Assembly: GCF_015709455.1 (NCBI RefSeq)
Contig: NZ_JADNQW010000005.1
Location: 310,001-374,000 of the forward strand
Length of the DNA: 64,000 nt
Source: Methylosinus sp. H3A
GTDB lineage: Bacteria > Pseudomonadota > Alphaproteobacteria > Rhizobiales > Beijerinckiaceae
Direction of reading: 5' to 3'
Part shown: one piece after another, positions 1-9,815 of the stretch
How positions within the stretch are numbered: the first letter of the stretch is position 1
Layout of the letters: each line of letters starts with the position of its first letter
Notes under the pieces: model-generated
The model's database searches: none
The model's input: only the letters and a program-made list of their open reading frames with translations
Told to the model about the DNA's origin: nothing
Position numbers and translations under genes: made by a program

Positions 1-500
1 TGCGCGCGCTCGCGCAGCGCTCCGCGGAAGCCGCGCGCGAAATCAAGAGTTTGATTTCGACGTCCTCCTCGCAAGTCGAAGATGGCGTGGCCCTCGTCGC
101 GCAGACCGGCAAGTCGCTCGATCGAATTGTCGATCAGGTGGTGGAGGCGAACAAGGTCGTCGTCGAGATCGCCAATGGCGCGCGTGAGCAGGCGACGGGC
201 CTCGCCGAAGTCAATACGGCCGTCGCGCAAATGGATCAGTTCACGCAGCAGAACGCCGCCATGGTCGAAGAGACGACGGCGGCGAGCCATGGGCTGAAAA
301 GCGACATAGAGCGGCTCTCGATGTCCGTCGACGCCTTCGATCTCGGCGAGCGGCCGGAAGTCGTGGCGTCGGCCGGCAAGCGGACGAAGCCGCCATCGAC
401 GACAAAGGCGCCGCAGCAGCAGCGGCGCGTCACGACGCGCGGCGGAGCGCTTGCGAAGGAGCAGGTCGCGCGGATCGAAGAGGGCTGGGAGGAGTTCTGA
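1..500 (+). CDS. Methyl-accepting chemotaxis protein, C-terminal part (truncated by window edge)
   Basis: This is the end of a chemotaxis receptor whose frame is open from base 3, so the start lies outside the window. The visible part begins inside the second helix of the signalling hairpin (residues like RSAEAAREIKSL), continues through QVEDGVALVAQTGKSLDRIV and FTQQNAAMVEETTAAS, and ends in a basic Pro/Thr/Gln-rich linker followed by the tail EEGWEEF. The terminal W-x-x-F resembles the CheR/CheB-tethering pentapeptide known from high-abundance receptors (NWETF in enterics). The stop is 2 bases before cheW, so it is the promoter-proximal visible gene of the che operon. In rhizobia the che operon also opens with a receptor gene (icpA), which is cytoplasmic; whether this one has membrane segments cannot be seen. 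Confidence 0.93.
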   Translation, partial: RALAQRSAEAAREIKSLISTSSSQVEDGVALVAQTGKSLDRIVDQVVEANKVVVEIANGAREQATGLAEVNTAVAQMDQFTQQNAAMVEETTAASHGLKSDIERLSMSVDAFDLGERPEVVASAGKRTKPPSTTKAPQQQRRVTTRGGALAKEQVARIEEGWEEF

Positions 501-502
501 TC

Positions 503-973
503 ATGGCCGAGACGATTTCCCGCGTGGCGACGAACGAGGCGAAGGAGTTCATCGCCTTTCATATCGGCGCGCAGACGTTCTGCATCGACATAATGGCGGT
601 GCGTGAAATCCGCGGTTGGACTCCCGCGACGCCGCTGCCTCATTCGCCGAGCTTCGTGCGCGGTGTCATCAATCTTCGCGGCGCCGTGCTGCCGGTCATC
701 GATCTCGCCACACGTCTCGGGCTCATGCAGAGCGAGCCCACGGCCCGCCATGCGGTCATCGTCGTGCAATCGGCCGGCCAGGTCGTCGGACTTCTCGTCG
801 ACGCAGTGTCGAATATTCTAACGCTTACGCCTGACGCGATCCAGCCGACTCCCGAAGTCGCCTCGGACATCGCGCGGACCTTCGTGAAGGGCGTCGTCGC
901 CGCGGGGGACGAGATGATCAGCGTGCTGACCATCCAAAATCTGCTGCCGGAGCCGGTTCTCGACGCGGCTTGA
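503..973 (+). CDS. cheW: Chemotaxis coupling protein CheW
   Basis: A 156-residue CheW-fold adaptor that bridges receptors and the P5 domain of CheA in the signalling array. The protein shows the family pattern from about residue 15: FHIGAQTFCIDIMAVREIRG, then PHSPSFVRGVINLRGAVLPVIDL and a C-terminal segment VAAGDEMISVLTIQNLL. The length matches ordinary CheW. The ATG at 503 lies two bases after the receptor stop, and the ribosome-binding GGAG is inside the end of the receptor gene, so translation is probably coupled. In the rhizobial operon cheW sits after cheA; here it sits before the STAS gene. Confidence 0.95.
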   Translation: MAETISRVATNEAKEFIAFHIGAQTFCIDIMAVREIRGWTPATPLPHSPSFVRGVINLRGAVLPVIDLATRLGLMQSEPTARHAVIVVQSAGQVVGLLVDAVSNILTLTPDAIQPTPEVASDIARTFVKGVVAAGDEMISVLTIQNLLPEPVLDAA

Positions 974-1014: not shown

Positions 1015-1293
1015 ATGGTCACTGTCCGTCTACCCGATATCCTCGACATTCGCGCGGCCCTTCCGCTCGCCACGGAGCTTCTGCATGCGCGCGGCAATCC
1101 TCTGACGATCGACGCTTCGAATGTCGCCAAGGTCGGCACACAATGCATTCAGGTGCTGCTGTCGGCGCATGCGACATGGACCACGGACGGATTGTCCCTG
1201 AATGTCGTCCATCCATCCGACACCCTCCTCGAGGCCCTGGATACGCTCGGCATTCCCTTCACCGAAATTTCCGAACAGGAAAGCGCGAAATGA
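1015..1293 (+). CDS. STAS-domain protein of the chemotaxis operon (CheX-like in position)
   Basis: A 92-residue single STAS domain: the strand-loop TIDASNVAKVGTQCIQVLL corresponds to the segment that in anti-sigma-factor antagonists holds the phosphorylatable serine. Here the usual D-S-S-G is replaced by V-G-T-Q, so regulation by serine phosphorylation as in SpoIIAA is doubtful. Its place between cheW and cheY fits the small STAS gene called cheX in rhizobial che operons, which is unrelated to the CheC-type CheX phosphatase of other bacteria. Its stop overlaps the cheY start by four bases (ATGA). The function in chemotaxis is not established; an adaptor role is an inference. Confidence 0.85.
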   Translation: MVTVRLPDILDIRAALPLATELLHARGNPLTIDASNVAKVGTQCIQVLLSAHATWTTDGLSLNVVHPSDTLLEALDTLGIPFTEISEQESAK

Positions 1294-1655
1294 GCAAGAC
1301 TATTCTGACCGTCGACGATTCCCGGACCATGCGCGAAATGTTGATGCTCGCGCTCTCCGAAGCGGGCTTCAGCGTCGTGCAGGCCGAAGACGGCGTGCAT
1401 GGACTCGAAGTTCTCGAGAAGGAGACGCCCGATGTCATCGTCACCGACATCAACATGCCCCGCATGGACGGCTTCGGATTCATCGAAGGCGTGCGTCGAC
1501 ACGAGAAGCATCGCGCAGTGCCGATCCTCGTGCTGACGACCGAGAGCGACGGCGAGAAAAAGGATCGCGCGCGCCGCGCCGGAGCCACGGGCTGGATCGT
1601 CAAGCCGTTCAACCCCGTGAAGCTCGTGGACGCCATTCGTCGCGTGGCCGTGTAA
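1290..1655 (+). CDS. cheY: Chemotaxis response regulator CheY (first copy)
   Basis: A 121-residue single receiver domain. Acidic pocket D9-D10, phospho-acceptor D53 in VTDINMPRMDGF, the switch Thr region VLTTES and the conserved Lys in IVKPFNP are all present. The start ATG at 1290 overlaps the stop of the STAS gene, and cheA follows 19 bases after the stop. In organisms with two CheY proteins one usually acts on the flagellar motor and the other drains phosphate from CheA; the sequence alone does not say which this is. Its position directly before cheA corresponds to CheY1 of Sinorhizobium. Confidence 0.95.
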   Translation: MSKTILTVDDSRTMREMLMLALSEAGFSVVQAEDGVHGLEVLEKETPDVIVTDINMPRMDGFGFIEGVRRHEKHRAVPILVLTTESDGEKKDRARRAGATGWIVKPFNPVKLVDAIRRVAV

Positions 1656-1674: not shown

Positions 1675-3840
1675 GTGGACCCGATGGCCGCCATCAAGCA
1701 GACATTCTTTCAAGAATGTGAGGAACAGCTCGTCGAGCTGGAGAGCGGACTGCTCAGAATGGAGGATGGCGACGACGATCTCGAGACCGTCAACGCCGTT
1801 TTTCGGGCCGTTCATTCGATCAAAGGGGGAGCGGGCGCATTCGGATTCGACGAGCTCGTCGAATTCGTCCATGTCTTCGAGACCACGCTCGATCTCATCA
1901 GATCCGCCAAGCTCGCCGCGACCCCGGCGGTGACCAAGACGCTGCTGCGCGCCTCGGACGTGCTCGCCGATCTCGTTCGCGCAGCGCGCGAAGGCGGCAG
2001 CGCCGACGCCGGCGCGGTGAAGGTCATCGCGGATGAGCTCAATGCGCTGCTCGGCAGCGCGCCGCGCAGCGACGACGATGATGAAAAGGTCAGCGTCGAA
2101 TCACTCGAATTCGAGCCGGTCTGCATCTCGCTCGACTCGATCTTCGACTTGGGCGACGCGGATGCGCCGTCGACACAGGACTTCATCTTACGGTTCAAGC
2201 CCAGCGCCGGACTCTACGCCAAGGCCAATGAGACGCTTCGCCTGCTGCGCGAGCTCGGCCGCCTCGGCGAGATGACCGTCGAATGCGACATCAGCGAGAT
2301 TCCGCTGCTGACGGAGCTCGATCCGGAAGGGGCCTATCTGTCCTGGACGATCCATCTGACGACGAGCGTCTCCGAGCAACAGGTGCGCGAAGTCTTCGAA
2401 TTCGTCGAATGGGATTGCGAGCTCTCCGTCGAGACGGCCGATATCGGCAAGCTGCTCGAGGCGTTGCAGGAATCCCTCGAGCCGCAGGAGGCGCCGGTCG
2501 CGCCGGCCGCCGTCGCGGAGCCGAAGCAGACGATCGTTTCCGCCGCTCCCCCGCAGCAATCCTTCGCCGCGCCGAGCGACGATCATCCCGCCGCCGCGAA
2601 AGCCGAGGCAACGAAGGGCGAAGGCTCGGGCTCCGTGCAGGCGACGATCCGCGTCGATCTCGATCGCGTCGATCGCCTCATCAATCTCGTCGGAGAGCTC
2701 GTCATCAATCAGGCGATGTTGTCGCAGCGCGTTTCCGAGGCCGGCCTTTCGCGCGCATCCTCCGTCGTGATCGGCCTCGACGAGCTCGAGCAGCTGACGC
2801 GCGACATTCAGGACAGTGTGATGGCGATCCGCGCGCAGCCGGTGAAGCCGGTGTTCCAGCGCATGTCGCGCACTGTGCGCGAGGTCGCGTCGATGACCGG
2901 CAAGGCCGTGCGCCTCGTCATGGACGGTGAAACGACAGAGGTCGACAAGACCGTCGTCGAGCGTTTGACCGATCCGCTCACCCATATGATCCGCAACGCC
3001 GTCGATCATGGCATCGAGAAGGCGGAAGACAGGATCGCGGCCGGCAAGCCGGAGGAAGGCTCGCTGCGTCTGTCGGCGATGCATCGCTCCGGTCGCATCG
3101 TCATCGAGGTCGCAGACGACGGCGCCGGCATCAATCGCGCGCGCGTGCGTCAGATCGCGGTCTCCAAGGGCCTGATACCGGCGGAAGCCAATCTCACGGA
3201 TGACGAGATCGACAATCTCATCTTCCTTCCCGGCTTCTCGACCGCCTCTTCGGTCTCCAACATCTCCGGTCGCGGCGTCGGCATGGATGTGGTCAAGCGT
3301 GCGATTCAAGCGCTCGGCGGCCGCATCTCCATCTCTTCGGTTCCGGGCCGCGGCTCCACCTTCTCGATGAGCCTGCCGCTCACTCTGGCCGTTCTCGACG
3401 GCATGGTCGTCACCGTCGGCGGACAGACGCTGGTCGTCCCGCTGACCGCGATCATCGAAACGCTGCAACCCAAGAAAGAGAGCGTGCATGAGCTCGGCAG
3501 CGGCGCCCGCGTCATCGCGACGCGCAATACGTTCACGCCGCTGATCGACGTCGGCGCCGTGCTGCTGTATCGCGACGAGCCGATCGAGGCCACCTCGCAG
3601 GTCGCGCTGCTCGTCGAGTCGGAGAGCGGCGCGAAATGCGCGCTGCTCGTCGATGCGATCCAGGGCCAGCGTCAAGTCGTGATCAAGAGCCTCGAGACCA
3701 ATTACGGTCATGTGCATGGCATAGCCGCGGCGACGATCCTGGGCGATGGCCGCGTCGCTCTGATCCTCGACGTCGACGCGATCGTCGCGCGGCCGCGCGC
3801 CGACATGATCGTCGCCGAAATGCCGGCGGCGGCCGAATAG
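1675..3840 (+). CDS. cheA: Chemotaxis histidine kinase CheA
   Basis: A 721-residue CheA that autophosphorylates on the Hpt domain and passes phosphate to CheY and CheB. The Hpt histidine is H47 in VFRAVHSIKGGAGAF. A P2-like segment occupies about residues 140-265, followed by an Ala/Pro/Glu linker, the P3 dimerisation helices (about 325-400), and the ATPase with MIRNAVDHGIEK (N box), VADDGAGINRARV (G1) and SGRGVGMDVVK (G2). The last 150 residues are the CheW-like P5 domain. I chose the GTG at 1675 because GGAG at 1663-1666 is 8 bases upstream; the in-frame ATG at 1684 would be too far. A 72-base gap precedes cheR. Confidence 0.96.
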   Translation: MDPMAAIKQTFFQECEEQLVELESGLLRMEDGDDDLETVNAVFRAVHSIKGGAGAFGFDELVEFVHVFETTLDLIRSAKLAATPAVTKTLLRASDVLADLVRAAREGGSADAGAVKVIADELNALLGSAPRSDDDDEKVSVESLEFEPVCISLDSIFDLGDADAPSTQDFILRFKPSAGLYAKANETLRLLRELGRLGEMTVECDISEIPLLTELDPEGAYLSWTIHLTTSVSEQQVREVFEFVEWDCELSVETADIGKLLEALQESLEPQEAPVAPAAVAEPKQTIVSAAPPQQSFAAPSDDHPAAAKAEATKGEGSGSVQATIRVDLDRVDRLINLVGELVINQAMLSQRVSEAGLSRASSVVIGLDELEQLTRDIQDSVMAIRAQPVKPVFQRMSRTVREVASMTGKAVRLVMDGETTEVDKTVVERLTDPLTHMIRNAVDHGIEKAEDRIAAGKPEEGSLRLSAMHRSGRIVIEVADDGAGINRARVRQIAVSKGLIPAEANLTDDEIDNLIFLPGFSTASSVSNISGRGVGMDVVKRAIQALGGRISISSVPGRGSTFSMSLPLTLAVLDGMVVTVGGQTLVVPLTAIIETLQPKKESVHELGSGARVIATRNTFTPLIDVGAVLLYRDEPIEATSQVALLVESESGAKCALLVDAIQGQRQVVIKSLETNYGHVHGIAAATILGDGRVALILDVDAIVARPRADMIVAEMPAAAE

Positions 3841-3912: not shown

Positions 3913-4791
3913 ATGAAACACCGTCACGTCGCCACGGCCCCGCTCGTCCCTGGAGAATTCCTGCTGACGCAGGATGATTTCCGACGGATCGCCTCGATCC
4001 TGCATGAGGACGCCGGCATCTATCTGCCGGACTCCAAAGCCACGCTCGTCTATTCGCGCCTCGCCAAGCGGCTGCGCAGTCTCGGGCTTGAGAATTTCCG
4101 CGACTATTGCTCGCTCATCGTCAGCGAGGATGGAATCGACGAGCGCCAGAAGATGATGGCGGCGCTCACCACCAATGTGACGCGCTTCTTCCGGGAGCCG
4201 CATCACTTCAAGCATCTCGAGGAGAATGTCCTCGCCAAGCGCGCGGCCGCGGTGCGCAAGGGCGCGCGCCTGCGGATTTGGTCGGCGGCCTGCTCCAATG
4301 GCCAGGAGCCCTATTCGATCGCCATGTCGATTCTCTCCGTCATACCGGAAGCGGCGGAGCTCGACGTCAAGGTTCTCGCCACCGACATCGATCCGAACAT
4401 GGTCGCCGCCGGCGCCAATGGCGTCTATGGCCGCGACGTCATGGAGGCGGTGCCGTCGCATCTGCGCAGCCGCTGGTTCACACCGCTCGGCGGCGGACGC
4501 GACGAGTGGGGAGTGACCGAGGAGCTCGCATCGCTCGTCTCGTTCCGAGAGCTCAATCTCATCGGCCATTGGCCGATGACCGGCCGCTTCGACGCGATCT
4601 TCTGTCGGAACGTGGTCATCTATTTCGAAGAGAAGACGCAAGAAAACATCTGGAGTCGCTTCGTTCCCCTCTTCAACCCGGACGGGCGTCTCTACATCGG
4701 CCACTCCGAACGCGTATCCGGCTCGGCCACATCCTCCTTAGAATACGACGGCGTCACTACCTATCGTCTCCGATCCAGAGGAAATTCGTAA
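3913..4791 (+). CDS. cheR: Chemotaxis protein methyltransferase CheR
   Basis: A 292-residue S-adenosylmethionine-dependent methyltransferase that methylates receptor glutamates during adaptation. The N-terminal helical CheR domain ([20 protein letters not shown]) is followed by the SAM-binding core: [18 protein letters not shown], then [13 protein letters not shown] and [13 protein letters not shown]. It ends one base before cheB, so the writer and eraser of receptor methylation are adjacent. No strong ribosome-binding site is seen ahead of the ATG, so a slightly different start is possible. The receptor tails ending WEEF, WTDF or WTEF are plausible docking sites for its beta subdomain. Confidence 0.95.
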
Positions 4792-4792
4792 G

Positions 4793-5902
4793 ATGCCTGT
4801 TCGTGTGCTGATCGTCGACGATTCCGCCACCATGCGAGGACTCATTGCCGCGACGCTCTGTCGAGACCCCGCCATCTCCGTCGTGGGCGAGGCCGCGGAC
4901 CCGCTCGAAGCGCGGCAGGCCATCAAGACTCTCGATCCGGATGTGGTGACGCTCGATGTCGAAATGCCGAATATGAACGGCCTCGAATTCCTCGCGAGGA
5001 TCATGCGGCTGCGTCCGACGCGCGTGATCATGGTCTCGACCATGACCGAAAGAGGTGCGTCGACGACGATCAAGGCGCTCGAGATCGGCGCCTTCGACTG
5101 CGTCGCCAAGCCCTCGGCCAAGGATCCTCGCTCCTTCGACGAGCTGCCGGCGAAGATCAAGGCGATCGCCGCCTCGCCGATCAACCGACAGGAGCCGCTT
5201 CGGCAGGAATCGCATCGGCAAGAATCGCATCGGCAAGAGTTGCACCGGCAGGAATTGCACCGGCAGGATCCGACCTCCGCCGGCGCCGCGCGGAGAGAGC
5301 CGCAGACCGCGTCGTCCCGCTATTCGCCGGACGGACGTCTCGTCGCGATCGGCTCATCCACCGGCGGCGTCGAAGCGCTGCTCACGATTTTGTCGCAGTT
5401 CCCCGAGAATTGTCCGCCGACCATCGTCACCCAGCATATGCCGCCGGTGTTCACGGCGAGCTTCGCCGCGCGCCTCGATCGCCTGTGCAAGCCGCATGTC
5501 GCCGAAGCCGTGGACGGCGCTCCGATCCTGCCCGGCCGCGTCTATCTCGCTCCCGGCGGCGCCGCCCATCTCGAAGTCGTGAAGCATGTCGGCGGCTATC
5601 GCTGCCGCCTCACCAATACGGAAGCGGTGAACGGTCATCGTCCCTCGGTCGATGTTCTGTTCAACTCGGTCGCGCAGAGCGCGGGTCGCAACGCGCTCGG
5701 CGTGATCCTCACCGGCATGGGTCGCGACGGCGCCCAGGGGCTGCTCGCGATGCGCAAGATCGGCGCGGAGACGATCGGCCAGGACGAGGCGAGCTCGCTC
5801 GTCTATGGCATGCCGAAGGCGGCCTTCGAGATCGGCGGCGTCGGCAAGCAGCTCACGCTGCAGCGCATCGCCGCGCACATACTCACTTCGACGAACCAGT
5901 AA
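4793..5902 (+). CDS. cheB: Chemotaxis response regulator and protein-glutamate methylesterase CheB
   Basis: A 369-residue CheB with an N-terminal receiver (D9, D10, phospho-acceptor D55 in [11 protein letters not shown]) and a C-terminal methylesterase. The catalytic triad is visible as the serine in [12 protein letters not shown], the histidine in TQHMPP and the aspartate in GMGRDGAQG. The linker (about residues 130-165) holds an unusual run of five-residue repeats of the type RQ-E-S/L-H, encoded by a 15-base tandem repeat at 5186-5275. The C-terminal domain is otherwise of normal length. Acts on receptors at the inner membrane with CheR and CheD. Confidence 0.96.
5186..5275 (+). repeat. 15-base in-frame tandem repeat in the CheB linker
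   Basis: Consecutive 15-base units beginning cggca: the best-matching units are at 5201-5215, 5216-5230, 5231-5245 and 5246-5260, with diverged units at 5186-5200 and 5261-5275. Each unit encodes R-Q-E-(S/L)-H. Loss or gain of a unit keeps the frame and would change only linker length between receiver and methylesterase. Confidence 0.9.
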
Positions 5903-5918
5903 CAGTACGGGGGAATCC

Positions 5919-6308
5919 ATGTCCATCGCCGCCCAATTGAGAGTCTTGATCGTGGACGACACGAGCACGAGCCGCATGCTCATTCGCGACGGTCTCGAGG
6001 AGCTCGGCGTGCGCAACATATTCTTCGCCGGCGACGGCGAGCAGGCCCTGCAATTCATGATGGCCACTCCCGCGCATCTCGTCATCTCCGATTTCAACAT
6101 GCCCAAGCTCGACGGCCTCGGCCTTCTGAAGGCGATCCGCAACTATAATCCGACGAAGAAAGTGCCGTTCATCATGCTCACGGGACGCGCCGACAAGACG
6201 CTGCTCGAGAATGCCGTGAAGCTCGGCGTCAACAACTTCCTCACCAAGCCCTTTACCGTTCCGGCCCTGAAAAAAGCGCTCGAAGCGATCATCGGCAAAC
6301 TCGCGTGA
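5919..6308 (+). CDS. cheY: Chemotaxis response regulator CheY (second copy)
   Basis: A 129-residue receiver domain with D13-D14, phospho-acceptor D58 in [16 protein letters not shown], the switch Thr in IMLTGRADK and Lys in [10 protein letters not shown] chose the ATG at 5919, 16 bases after cheB, because the protein then begins directly with a short lead and the first beta strand (LRVLIVDD). It overlaps cheD by four bases. Position after cheB and before cheD corresponds to CheY2 in rhizobial operons, which is the main motor-binding regulator there; assignment of that role here is by position only. Confidence 0.95.
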
Positions 6309-6850
6309 CGCAAATGAACGCCGGCATGAAGCGAATCCACATCATCCAAGGCGAATATCGGGTGGTCGACGATCCGAACGCCGTCCTCGCGACGATTCTC
6401 GGATCCTGCGTGGCCGCCTGCCTCAGGGACGCCGCCGCCGGCGTCGGAGGAATGAATCATTTTCTGCTGCCCGGCGACTTCACCTCGTCGCGCAATGGAG
6501 AGGCGGAACGCTATGGCGTGCATCTCATGGAGCTGCTCGTCAACGGGCTGCTGAAGAAGGGCGCGCGGCGCGATCGTCTCGAAGGGAAGCTGTTCGGCGG
6601 CGCGCGCATGATGGAAGGCCTGTCCGACATAGGCGCGAGAAACGCCGAATTCGCCAAGCGCTTCCTGAAGAACGAAGGCATTCGCCTCGTCGCCGAGCAT
6701 CTCGGCGGCGACAGGGGACGCCGCGTCGAATATGAGCCCGTGTCCGGACGCGCGCGACAGAGTCTTCTCTCCGGCCCGACGCCCACCGCCGCGCCGCCTC
6801 CCATCGTCATGCCGAAACTGCCGGCCGCCGGCTCACTGGAGCTGTTCTGA
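6305..6850 (+). CDS. cheD: Chemoreceptor glutamine deamidase CheD
   Basis: A 181-residue CheD. The family converts receptor glutamines to methylatable glutamates. The catalytic cysteine lies in [13 protein letters not shown] and the histidine in GGMNHFLLP, and the [10 protein letters not shown] segment is also typical. Translation starts at a GTG that overlaps the cheY stop (GTGA), and the stop overlaps the next start (TGATG), so cheY-cheD-next gene look translationally coupled. The C-terminal 30 residues are a Pro/Ala tail without clear homology to the core. Confidence 0.94.
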
Positions 6851-7239
6851 TGACGGAGCCGAAGACGATCTCGCCCCGCGGCGCGAATGAGCGATCCCAA
6901 CCGCTGGTCGAGGTTCTCTCCCGGCTGGCCGTGGAGCTGCGCAACGCGGCCAAGGAGACGGATCGTCTCCATTGTCTCGTCGACGGCGTCGAATGGAGCA
7001 ATGTGGAGGAGAAGCACGAGCTGATCCACTCGGCGCAGGCGATCGACGCGATCGAGCAGACGCTCTCGGGCCTCTCGGACTTCGTCGACGCGCTCGCCGA
7101 GCTCGCGCCGGCCGACTGGGAGATCTGCGGCCGGACGGCCTCGCGCAGCGTCAAGCTCGCCGAGCTCGCAGCGCGCCTCTCGGACAGCCCCGACGACGGG
7201 CGCACGGATCATCCGGCCGGGGAATTCGAGTTCTTCTGA
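6850..7239 (+). CDS. Last gene of che operon, CheT-like candidate with D-x-x-x-Q motif
   Basis: A 129-residue, mainly helical acidic protein that I cannot assign by strong family motifs. Two long helices are predicted by eye (about residues 17-45 and 50-90). Residues D66 and Q70 in AIDAIEQTLSGL form a D-x-x-x-Q motif, the signature by which CheZ phosphatases insert into phospho-CheY. The place directly after cheD matches cheT of Sinorhizobium meliloti, which I recall being described as a CheZ-like terminator protein. The start overlaps the cheD stop by one base. The tail ends EFEFF. The phosphatase role is an inference from position and motif. Confidence 0.72.
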   Translation: MTEPKTISPRGANERSQPLVEVLSRLAVELRNAAKETDRLHCLVDGVEWSNVEEKHELIHSAQAIDAIEQTLSGLSDFVDALAELAPADWEICGRTASRSVKLAELAARLSDSPDDGRTDHPAGEFEFF

Positions 7240-8194: not shown

Positions 8195-9643
8195 TCAGAA
8201 ATCGGTCCAGACTCTGCTGCGACGCTCGCTCGCCCCGATGCGCCCCGACGCGACGACCTCGCCGCCGGACGCCGCCAGGCGCGGAACGGCCGCATAGGGC
8301 GTCGCGACTTCGAAGTCCCGGGCGATGCGGAAGCGCGAGATCAAGTCGATCAACCGCTTCGTCTTCTCGCTCAGCTCATGGCTCACGGCGGTGGTCTGCT
8401 CCGCCATGGCGGCGTTCTGCTGCGTGATCATATCCATCTGGCGGACGGAGCCGTTCACCTCGTTGAGCGCCGCGGCCTGCTGGCGCGCGCGCTCGGCGAT
8501 CTCCGCGACGACTCCATTGACGCGCCCGATCTCCTCGACGATATGCGAAAGCGCTTCGCCCGTGTCGCCGACGAGCGAGACGCCGCGGCCGATCTGCGCG
8601 TTCGAGACCGAGATCAGAATGTCGATCTCCTTGGCGGCCTTGGCGCTGCGGCGCGCGAGGTCGCGAATCTCCGCCGCCACCACCGCGAAGCCGCGTCCCG
8701 CCTCACCGGCGCGCGCCGCTTCGACGCCCGCGTTCAGCGCCAGCAGATTGGTCTGCGTCGCGATCGAGTCGATGACGCCGATGATCTGCGAAATCTTCTT
8801 CGACGATTGCTCGATATCGCCCATGCCGCCGATCGCCTGTCGCACGATGCCGCCGCTGGATTCCGCCTCCGAGCTCATATTGGAGACGATCTGCCGCGCA
8901 TTCTCGGCGTCTTCCGCGGTCCGCGCGACGGTCTCGGTGATCTGCGCGAGCGCCGCGGCGGTCTCCTCGAGATTGGAGGCCTGGCTCTCCGTGCGCCGCG
9001 ACAGATCGTCGGCCGCGGCGACGGTCTCCTGCATGCCGGAGCCCAAGAGCTTGGTGCTCTCGGCCATTTCGCCGATCGCCTCCGACAATTGTCCGACCGC
9101 GGTGTTGAAGTCGGTCTGCAGCCGTCGATAGGATCGAGGAACTTCGTCGGTCAGCCGATAGGTCAGATCCTTTTCGGCGATCTTGGCCAGCCCGTCGCCG
9201 AGCAGCTGGACGATGCGCGCCTGTGCGGCGTTGGCTTCCACGATGAGGCTCTCGTCGGCGCGGTGATCGAGGATCACCTGCCGAAGATTGACGAAAGCCT
9301 CGGCGAGACGCCGGACGCTCTCGGAACATTCGTCGATCTCGAGCCGATAGGACGTGTCGCCGTCGGCGAGCCGGCGGATCGCCTCGGTCACGGCGGCGAG
9401 GGGCGTGACCATGCGCGTGCGCACGGCGACGGCGCCCAGAATGCAGAGAAGGGCGATGAGTGCGGGGCCGACGAAGAGCGTCGCCAATCTCGGATCGCGC
9501 GCGGCTTCCCAGCCGCTCGCCGCGGCGAAGAGACGCCAGCTCACGATGGCCTGCGCGAATGCGATCACGGCGATGACGGACAGCAACATCGCCGACCGTG
9601 CGCGCAATCCCGTCGGAACAATGTCGCGCAAGCTATTCACCAT
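8195..9643 (-). CDS. Methyl-accepting chemotaxis protein with minimal periplasmic loop
   Basis: A 482-residue receptor. Two membrane helices (about residues 17-37 and 53-73) flank only some 16 residues, so there is no room for a periplasmic ligand-binding domain. A HAMP domain ([18 protein letters not shown]) is followed by a second HAMP-like unit ([10 protein letters not shown] region) and a full signalling domain with the hairpin tip [36 protein letters not shown]. The C-terminus ends RVWTDF, a possible CheR/CheB tether. I chose ATG 9643 because GGGAG sits about seven bases upstream and the hydrophobic segment follows properly. A CtrA-type box lies at 9816-9830. Confidence 0.93.
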
Positions 9644-9815
9644 GGAATCTCCCGGCCACCCGAAACGAATGGTCGACTGCGACGCTCGCGCCGACGAGAT
9701 GTCATCGGCTCGATAACGCCGGGTCGAGAGCGCGACGGATAGACGCCCGCCCGGGACAATGTCCAAATCGACCGGAATCCTGAACCGCCGCGAGACAGTA
9801 ATGGACCAGTCGCCG

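Follow-up and report, generated by a model that had tools for sequence, protein, structure and literature searches.

What the last gene of an alphaproteobacterial che operon does, and in particular whether it encodes a phosphatase of phosphorylated CheY (CheY-P), is the question raised by the locus described here. The locus lies in a 64,000-nucleotide stretch of Methylosinus sp. H3A (contig NZ_JADNQW010000005.1, positions 310,001 to 374,000 of the forward strand); the whole stretch is called the window below, and its own numbering is used throughout. An initial annotation, made from the letters of the window, had described the gene as cheT-like with a CheZ-style D-x-x-x-Q motif. Based on the comparisons reported here, the gene product is very probably the CheT of the operon, a small helical-hairpin protein that would speed the removal of phosphate from a CheY. 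The features on which this reading is built are the following:

6850..7239, + strand: cheT, 129 amino acid residues, an open reading frame (ORF) with an ATG start that matches NCBIfam NF047973 and adjoins cheD
7036..7059, + strand: Q63-A-I-D66-A-I-E-Q70, the presumed catalytic helix segment of CheT, with invariant columns in alignment A3 and a mid-helix position in the model
7222..7236, + strand: the C-terminal tail E-F-E-F-F of CheT, marked by the conservation of F129 and by the tail counts
6305..6850, + strand: cheD, a receptor deamidase (PF03975, E = 6.7e-28; 61% identity to S. meliloti CheD)

The ORF list agreed with the initial annotation in its coordinates and length, in the coupling to cheD and in the presence of D66 and Q70; the ATG of cheT shares one base with the stop codon of cheD (TGATG). 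Model NF047973 (chemotaxis protein CheT) matched residues 15-129 of the protein at model positions 12-130 of 130 (E = 4e-9), and S. meliloti CheT (locus L020) was 28% identical to it over 120 columns (BLASTP). Together with the position after cheD, these near-full-length matches bear out the CheT assignment. The S. meliloti protein resembles the window CheT in that position, in length, in the Q-x-x-D-x-x-x-Q motif and in a C-terminal G-[DE]-F-E-x-F, and differs from it in the low identity and in the score against NF047973 (225.5 versus 36.6 bits).

The named loci used for comparison are the 80 best among at least 576 that were confirmed through their CheD similarity. A CheT ORF directly follows cheD in 79 of these 80, including the locus of Caulobacter vibrioides (L122); because the loci were picked by likeness to the query, this fraction is not representative of the class. 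The only one of the 80 in which a normal-tailed cheD was found with no CheT after it comes from Aquamicrobium (L091). When 30 CheD loci were drawn from the class, a CheT match at E ≤ 0.001 lay within ~1.5 kilobases (kb) in three (the window's own, L160 and L163), and 20 wider regions of 10-11 kb, hand-chosen from such genomes, gave 11 matches at that threshold and a twelfth at 0.002. A CheT profile matched in at least 25 of the 397 genomes searched in the order, where scoring was limited to 10 candidates per genome. The window protein was matched in 16 of 60 relatives, and NF047973, used as the search model, gave matches in 3 of 385 class genomes, none over its cut-off. The C. vibrioides ORF shares the position after cheD, the motif (Q-A-L-D-E-L-S-Q) and the tail (GELDFF) with the window CheT, and differs in having no NF047973 match at E 0.01. 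It is probably CheU, a hardly described protein, to judge from a gene list in the available part of PMC10579534.

Alignment A3 was composed of the window CheT and 54 of 56 non-redundant CheTs from the named loci, which are 23-34% identical to the window protein. Its only invariant columns (55 rows) are Q63, D66 and Q70, and E29, A97, L103, L110 and F129 are kept in at least 90% of the rows. The Q-x-x-D-x-x-x-Q motif was present in all 127 collected CheT ORFs, a set that includes the same gene fetched repeatedly and that was reduced to 81 by clustering at 85%, and it was missing from none of 125 CheD-CheT pairs. The ORFs were chosen by profile score and not by the motif, with the qualification that a profile built on motif-bearing proteins ranks motif-less ones lower. 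A lone D-x-x-x-Q is unremarkable at this composition (~0.2 expected, by a hand estimate); the feature that stands above chance is the conservation of the motif, not its mere presence. The conservation of D66 and Q70 in orthologues, which had been set beforehand as a check, was thus confirmed.

An AlphaFold2 model of the single chain, calculated from the 55-row alignment, gave a helical hairpin with helices at residues 19-45 and 52-85 (mean predicted local distance difference test score (pLDDT) 84; predicted template modelling score 0.69). D66 and Q70 fall in the middle of helix 52-85, as the initial annotation had proposed for a helical protein with these residues in a helix. The C-terminus was poorly predicted, with a mean pLDDT of 60 for residues 111-120 and 53 for residues 121-129.

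The distribution of CheT was compared with that of CheZ. The earlier statement that classic CheZ is missing from Alphaproteobacteria is incorrect at the level of the class: PF04344 (CheZ) matched at E ≤ 0.001 in 56 of its 143 genomes examined, 55 of them over the family cut-off, and the CheZ of Azorhizobium appears functional according to the available part of PMC8429497; the source genome itself, however, yielded no CheZ when it was searched for one. CheT and CheZ hardly overlap across genomes. Their spread is near-exclusive, as expected if one CheY-P phosphatase replaces the other: CheZ was over the cut-off in 1 of 48 CheT genomes, compared with 55 of the 143 class genomes, and profile A3 matched at E ≤ 0.001 in none of the 56 CheZ genomes, a set that held no known matching genome.

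The remaining members of the operon, all on the same strand, are as follows:

483..497, + strand: C-terminal pentapeptide G-W-E-E-F of the chemoreceptor that heads the operon
503..973, + strand: cheW (Pfam; 56% identity to S. meliloti CheW)
1015..1293, + strand: STAS-domain protein, CheS orthologue (PF13466, E = 2.4e-12; 38% identity to the S. meliloti STAS protein)
1290..1655, + strand: cheY1, phosphate-sink response regulator orthologue (73% identity to S. meliloti CheY1)
1675..3840, + strand: cheA (Pfam; 72% identity to S. meliloti CheA over 397 columns)
3913..4791, + strand: cheR (Pfam; 53% identity to S. meliloti CheR)
4793..5902, + strand: cheB (Pfam; 59% identity to S. meliloti CheB)
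5919..6308, + strand: cheY2, motor response regulator orthologue (55% identity to S. meliloti CheY2)

The order is thus chemoreceptor (GWEEF)-cheW-STAS (cheS)-cheY1-cheA-cheR-cheB-cheY2-cheD-cheT, and for each of the nine proteins from CheW to CheT the best match is its counterpart from the che operon of S. meliloti. The gene order had been annotated as that of S. meliloti; the order ending in cheD-cheT is indeed the same, whereas S. meliloti has cheW between cheA and cheR and the window has it at the front of the operon. The eight other Che proteins are 38-73% identical to their S. meliloti counterparts, as against 28% for CheT.

A phosphatase role has been published for the S. meliloti relative. 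According to a 2025 review account available in excerpt (PMC12654446), which refers to Agbekudzi et al. 2024 (Mol Microbiol 122:429, doi 10.1111/mmi.15303), S. meliloti CheT carries a DXXXQ motif, forms a complex with CheR and speeds the loss of phosphate from just one of the two CheYs; an AlphaFold model of it is said to resemble CheZ, and S. medicae, R. leguminosarum, C. crescentus, Hoeflea and A. fabrum are listed as having homologues. CheY1 of S. meliloti is described as a phosphate sink in the excerpt of PMC8429497. The initial annotation had presented the phosphatase as an open idea; since the motif, the CheY dephosphorylation and the CheR binding of S. meliloti CheT are already published and an NCBIfam CheT model exists, that central idea is not new. 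In the 2024 study the CheY that was dephosphorylated is reportedly CheY1, the decay of CheY1-P is said to have been only about two-fold faster, the affinity for CheR to have been ~19 micromolar, and the deletion and motif mutants to have differed in phenotype.

Based on the published S. meliloti work, D66 and Q70 of the window CheT may play the parts of CheZ D143 and Q147, which we take to be their counterparts. Q70 would then orient the water that attacks the aspartyl phosphate of CheY1, the phosphate sink, CheY1 would drain phosphate from CheY2 through CheA, and the conserved tail, judging from sequence alone, might hold CheT on CheR and/or CheD and so tie signal termination to adaptation. 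CheT shares with CheZ (PF04344) the D-x-x-x-Q on a helix and the CheY-P phosphatase role published for the S. meliloti protein. It differs from CheZ in the absence of the Q-D-[LI]-T-G-Q context and of the C-terminal Q-D-D-[IV]-D-x-L-L type of peptide, and in size (129 residues versus 203 family model positions). The CheZ fold is a long helical hairpin forming a four-helix dimer; a hairpin is predicted in the CheT monomer model, and the fold searches described below neither support nor exclude a fold in common. Many alphaproteobacterial CheZ frames (L239-L270) end in peptides such as S-Q-D-D-I-D-A-L-L, which resemble the N-terminus of FliM. The CheC-CheD system of Bacillus and Thermotoga is similar in that the gene of a CheY-P phosphatase, CheC, goes together with cheD; CheC differs from CheT in fold and motif, and the alignment of CheD to T. 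maritima CheD ends before the tail.

Several observations weigh against reading the window protein as the CheT phosphatase of the operon. Its 36.6 bits do not reach the curated equivalog cut-off of NF047973 (200), which is passed by S. meliloti CheT and by an Agrobacterium CheT (206.4), and its orthology is drawn from gene position and near-full-length similarity, not from a curated model call. No homology between CheT and CheZ was detected when A3 was compared by hhalign with 34 of 55 CheZ pieces (probability 0.4%, E = 0.16); the sole local alignment, which is not significant, sets the two motifs side by side. The window CheT gave no Pfam match at E 0.1, PF04344 included, and over the 55 rows of A3 seven Pfam families matched one member each, weakly. 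Foldseek and VIA returned generic helical hairpins (WXG100 proteins, coiled coils and designed bundles) among the matches listed, from which CheZ was absent, a result that neither supports nor excludes a common fold; the CheT profile likewise gave weak matches, mostly to helical proteins (keratins, designed bundles), against the sequences of solved structures. A match to the CheZ model at E ≤ 0.001 was found in 3 of 48 CheT genomes, one over the cut-off. These 48 were named by hand, with G102 and G994 left out, and they span 27 genera (two with a CheZ match), so that the number of independent events is far below 48. The result of 0 of 56 lacks a positive control, and for ~17 of these genomes the scoring covered only 77 first-look candidates. 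The CheZ genome G102 has a weak CheT-like, motif-bearing frame (L209, 3560-4105, - strand; E = 5e-4 with a wider profile) with no NCBIfam match, and is a possible bearer of both proteins; in G994 the CheT match had E = 0.002. CheY1, the expected substrate of the window CheT, is carried over from S. meliloti.

Two other explanations of the protein have to be set beside a phosphatase. It may be mainly a binding or adaptor protein for CheR or CheD, with a marginal phosphatase activity and with Q63, D66 and Q70 as a binding surface; spaced i, i+3 and i+7, these residues do lie on one helix face, and the tail is conserved alongside the helix motif. The only ~two-fold gain in CheY1-P decay and the unlike phenotypes of deletion and motif mutants, as reported for the 2024 study, also point this way, as does the published CheR binding of S. 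meliloti CheT (PMC12654446, in excerpt). The same account reports the dephosphorylation of one CheY, and the near-exclusive distribution of CheT and CheZ fits a phosphatase, so that a mainly adaptor role appears improbable. A fortuitous resemblance of D66 and Q70 to the CheZ motif, in a helical protein of other descent, would agree with the ease with which this spacing arises and with the lack of detectable CheZ homology. This reading is nevertheless very improbable, given that every collected CheT carries the motif (127 of 127 ORFs, invariant in A3, all 125 pairs) and that the activity is published for the S. meliloti relative (PMC12654446, in excerpt). The assignment to CheT and the conservation of D66 and Q70 thus stand from the initial interpretation, while the class-wide absence of CheZ and the novelty of the idea do not.

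The conservation of F129 is explained by a short peptide that closes CheT behind a linker of variable sequence, and a tail of the same type is found on CheD:

6833..6847, + strand: C-terminal tail S-L-E-L-F of CheD, of the type seen in all 78 tallied CheDs

The pattern [FLIVMCYW][DE][LFA]F stood at the extreme C-terminus in 54 of the 81 CheTs left after clustering, and 67 of the 81 had it somewhere in their final 16 residues; the remaining 14 have a near form (ELELL, DSEFF) or no tail. It stood at the C-terminus of 78/78 tallied CheDs, and the two of 80 outside the tally, which the start pattern had missed, have ends (GGSVEFF) that fit too. The same loci gave 6429 other ORFs with a minimum of 100 codons, a set that includes many spurious frames; the tail closed none of these and fell within the final 16 residues of 20. 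A DNA pattern for [LF]-[DE]-[LF]-F-stop, which covers part of the codons and no TAG stops, found cheD, cheT and three frames (61, 286 and 10 codons) in the source genome; the three were judged to be non-chemotaxis frames without a search. The beta-clamp motif QLxLF was set aside for the CheD tail because it needs Q. No report of the CheT tail was found in open-licence papers of PubMed Central, a scope outside which the primary 2024 CheT paper falls.

The tail was also compared with the receptor pentapeptide. EFEFF of the window CheT is one letter off EFEKF, the consensus of Geobacter class 34H receptors (PMC2577667, in excerpt), and it fits the pattern xZxxZ, which was found at the C-terminus of 32 of 81 CheTs, of none of 78 CheDs and of 21 of the 6429 other ORFs. 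In contrast to the receptor peptide, it stands on a putative phosphatase, and none of the 54 CheT tails has W at the second place. The pattern W-E-x-F-stop found two chemoreceptors in the source genome; a further chemoreceptor (8195-9766, - strand), convergent with cheT and terminating in the W-type pentapeptide VWTDF, escaped it. Receptor-signalling frames of 357-437 residues in six CheD-bearing regions (L204, L207, L208, L209, L210 and L211) end in [IV][DE]LF and not in W-x-x-F. In the interdomain linker of the window CheB (5196-5268), about five tandem copies of a 15-base unit encode H-R-Q-E-[SL] repeats; the N-terminal part of this linker is given as the receptor-tethering region of CheB in the excerpt of PMC12654446.

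We tentatively propose that the CheT tail is a docking peptide that holds the protein on an adaptation protein, CheR and/or CheD, though with less than even confidence. It is about equally conceivable, again from the letters only, that CheT, CheD and some receptor-like proteins of chemotaxis clusters in Alphaproteobacteria have one C-terminal docking peptide, Phi-[DE]-[LF]-F, related to the pentapeptide of receptors, by which the phosphatase would be recruited to the adaptation machinery (CheR and/or CheD) in competition with receptor or CheD tails. A receptor-like pentapeptide on CheT would give a sequence basis for the published CheR binding, for which the review account, as far as the excerpt goes, gives none (PMC12654446). 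Receptors of S. meliloti are reported to need pentapeptide tethers, according to the title of a paper cited there. The residues by which Salmonella CheR contacts the peptide are mostly not conserved in the window CheR, nor in S. meliloti CheR; because the latter also lacks most of them, they are uninformative on pentapeptide binding.

The tail could instead dock on CheY, as an equivalent of the C-terminal peptide of CheZ. CheT must meet CheY, and CheZ likewise has a peptide of acidic and hydrophobic residues at its end (Q-D-D-[IV]-D-x-L-L type), but the CheT spacing, [DE]-Phi-[DE]-[LF]-F, is different, and the same tail type occurs on CheD and on some receptor-like proteins, which are not CheY phosphatases; docking on CheY therefore seems unlikely. 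Docking on CheD, in the groove for its own C-terminus and in analogy to CheC-CheD of Bacillus and Thermotoga, is just as doubtful. The likeness of the two tails and the position of cheT after cheD in 79 of the 80 named loci favour it, and the CheD model places its own tail (168-171) as a strand, albeit at low confidence (pLDDT ~60). R or K at A4 position 140 was found in 158 of 170 acidic-tailed CheDs versus 2 of 10 others, but this association follows clades and has 12 acidic-tailed exceptions, and it was not accepted as proof of a CheD groove. In L192 and L193, two genomes of one family, the acidic tail residue is lost from both CheD and CheT (VQLF/VNLF and ITLF/VSLF), whereas in 11 further pairs the CheT is without the acidic residue or the tail and the CheD keeps its acidic residue. 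Over all 125 pairs, the acidic residue was present in both proteins in 112, in neither in 2, and lacking from CheT alone in 11, among them the doubtful CheT of L209. Strict covariation was not upheld; Fisher's test gave p = 0.01, a value not corrected for relatedness, so that the association is only suggestive. Moreover, the partner named in print is CheR (PMC12654446, in excerpt).

The window CheT is a divergent member of the CheT kind and adds to a published idea. In a family that diverges to 23-34% identity, well beyond the reach of the published model, conservation is strongest at the presumed catalytic residues. The near-exclusive spread of CheT and CheZ makes the two a candidate case of a catalytic pair common to proteins without detectable homology. 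If the tail is indeed a docking peptide shared with the adaptation machinery, signal termination and receptor adaptation would be coupled via one peptide code.
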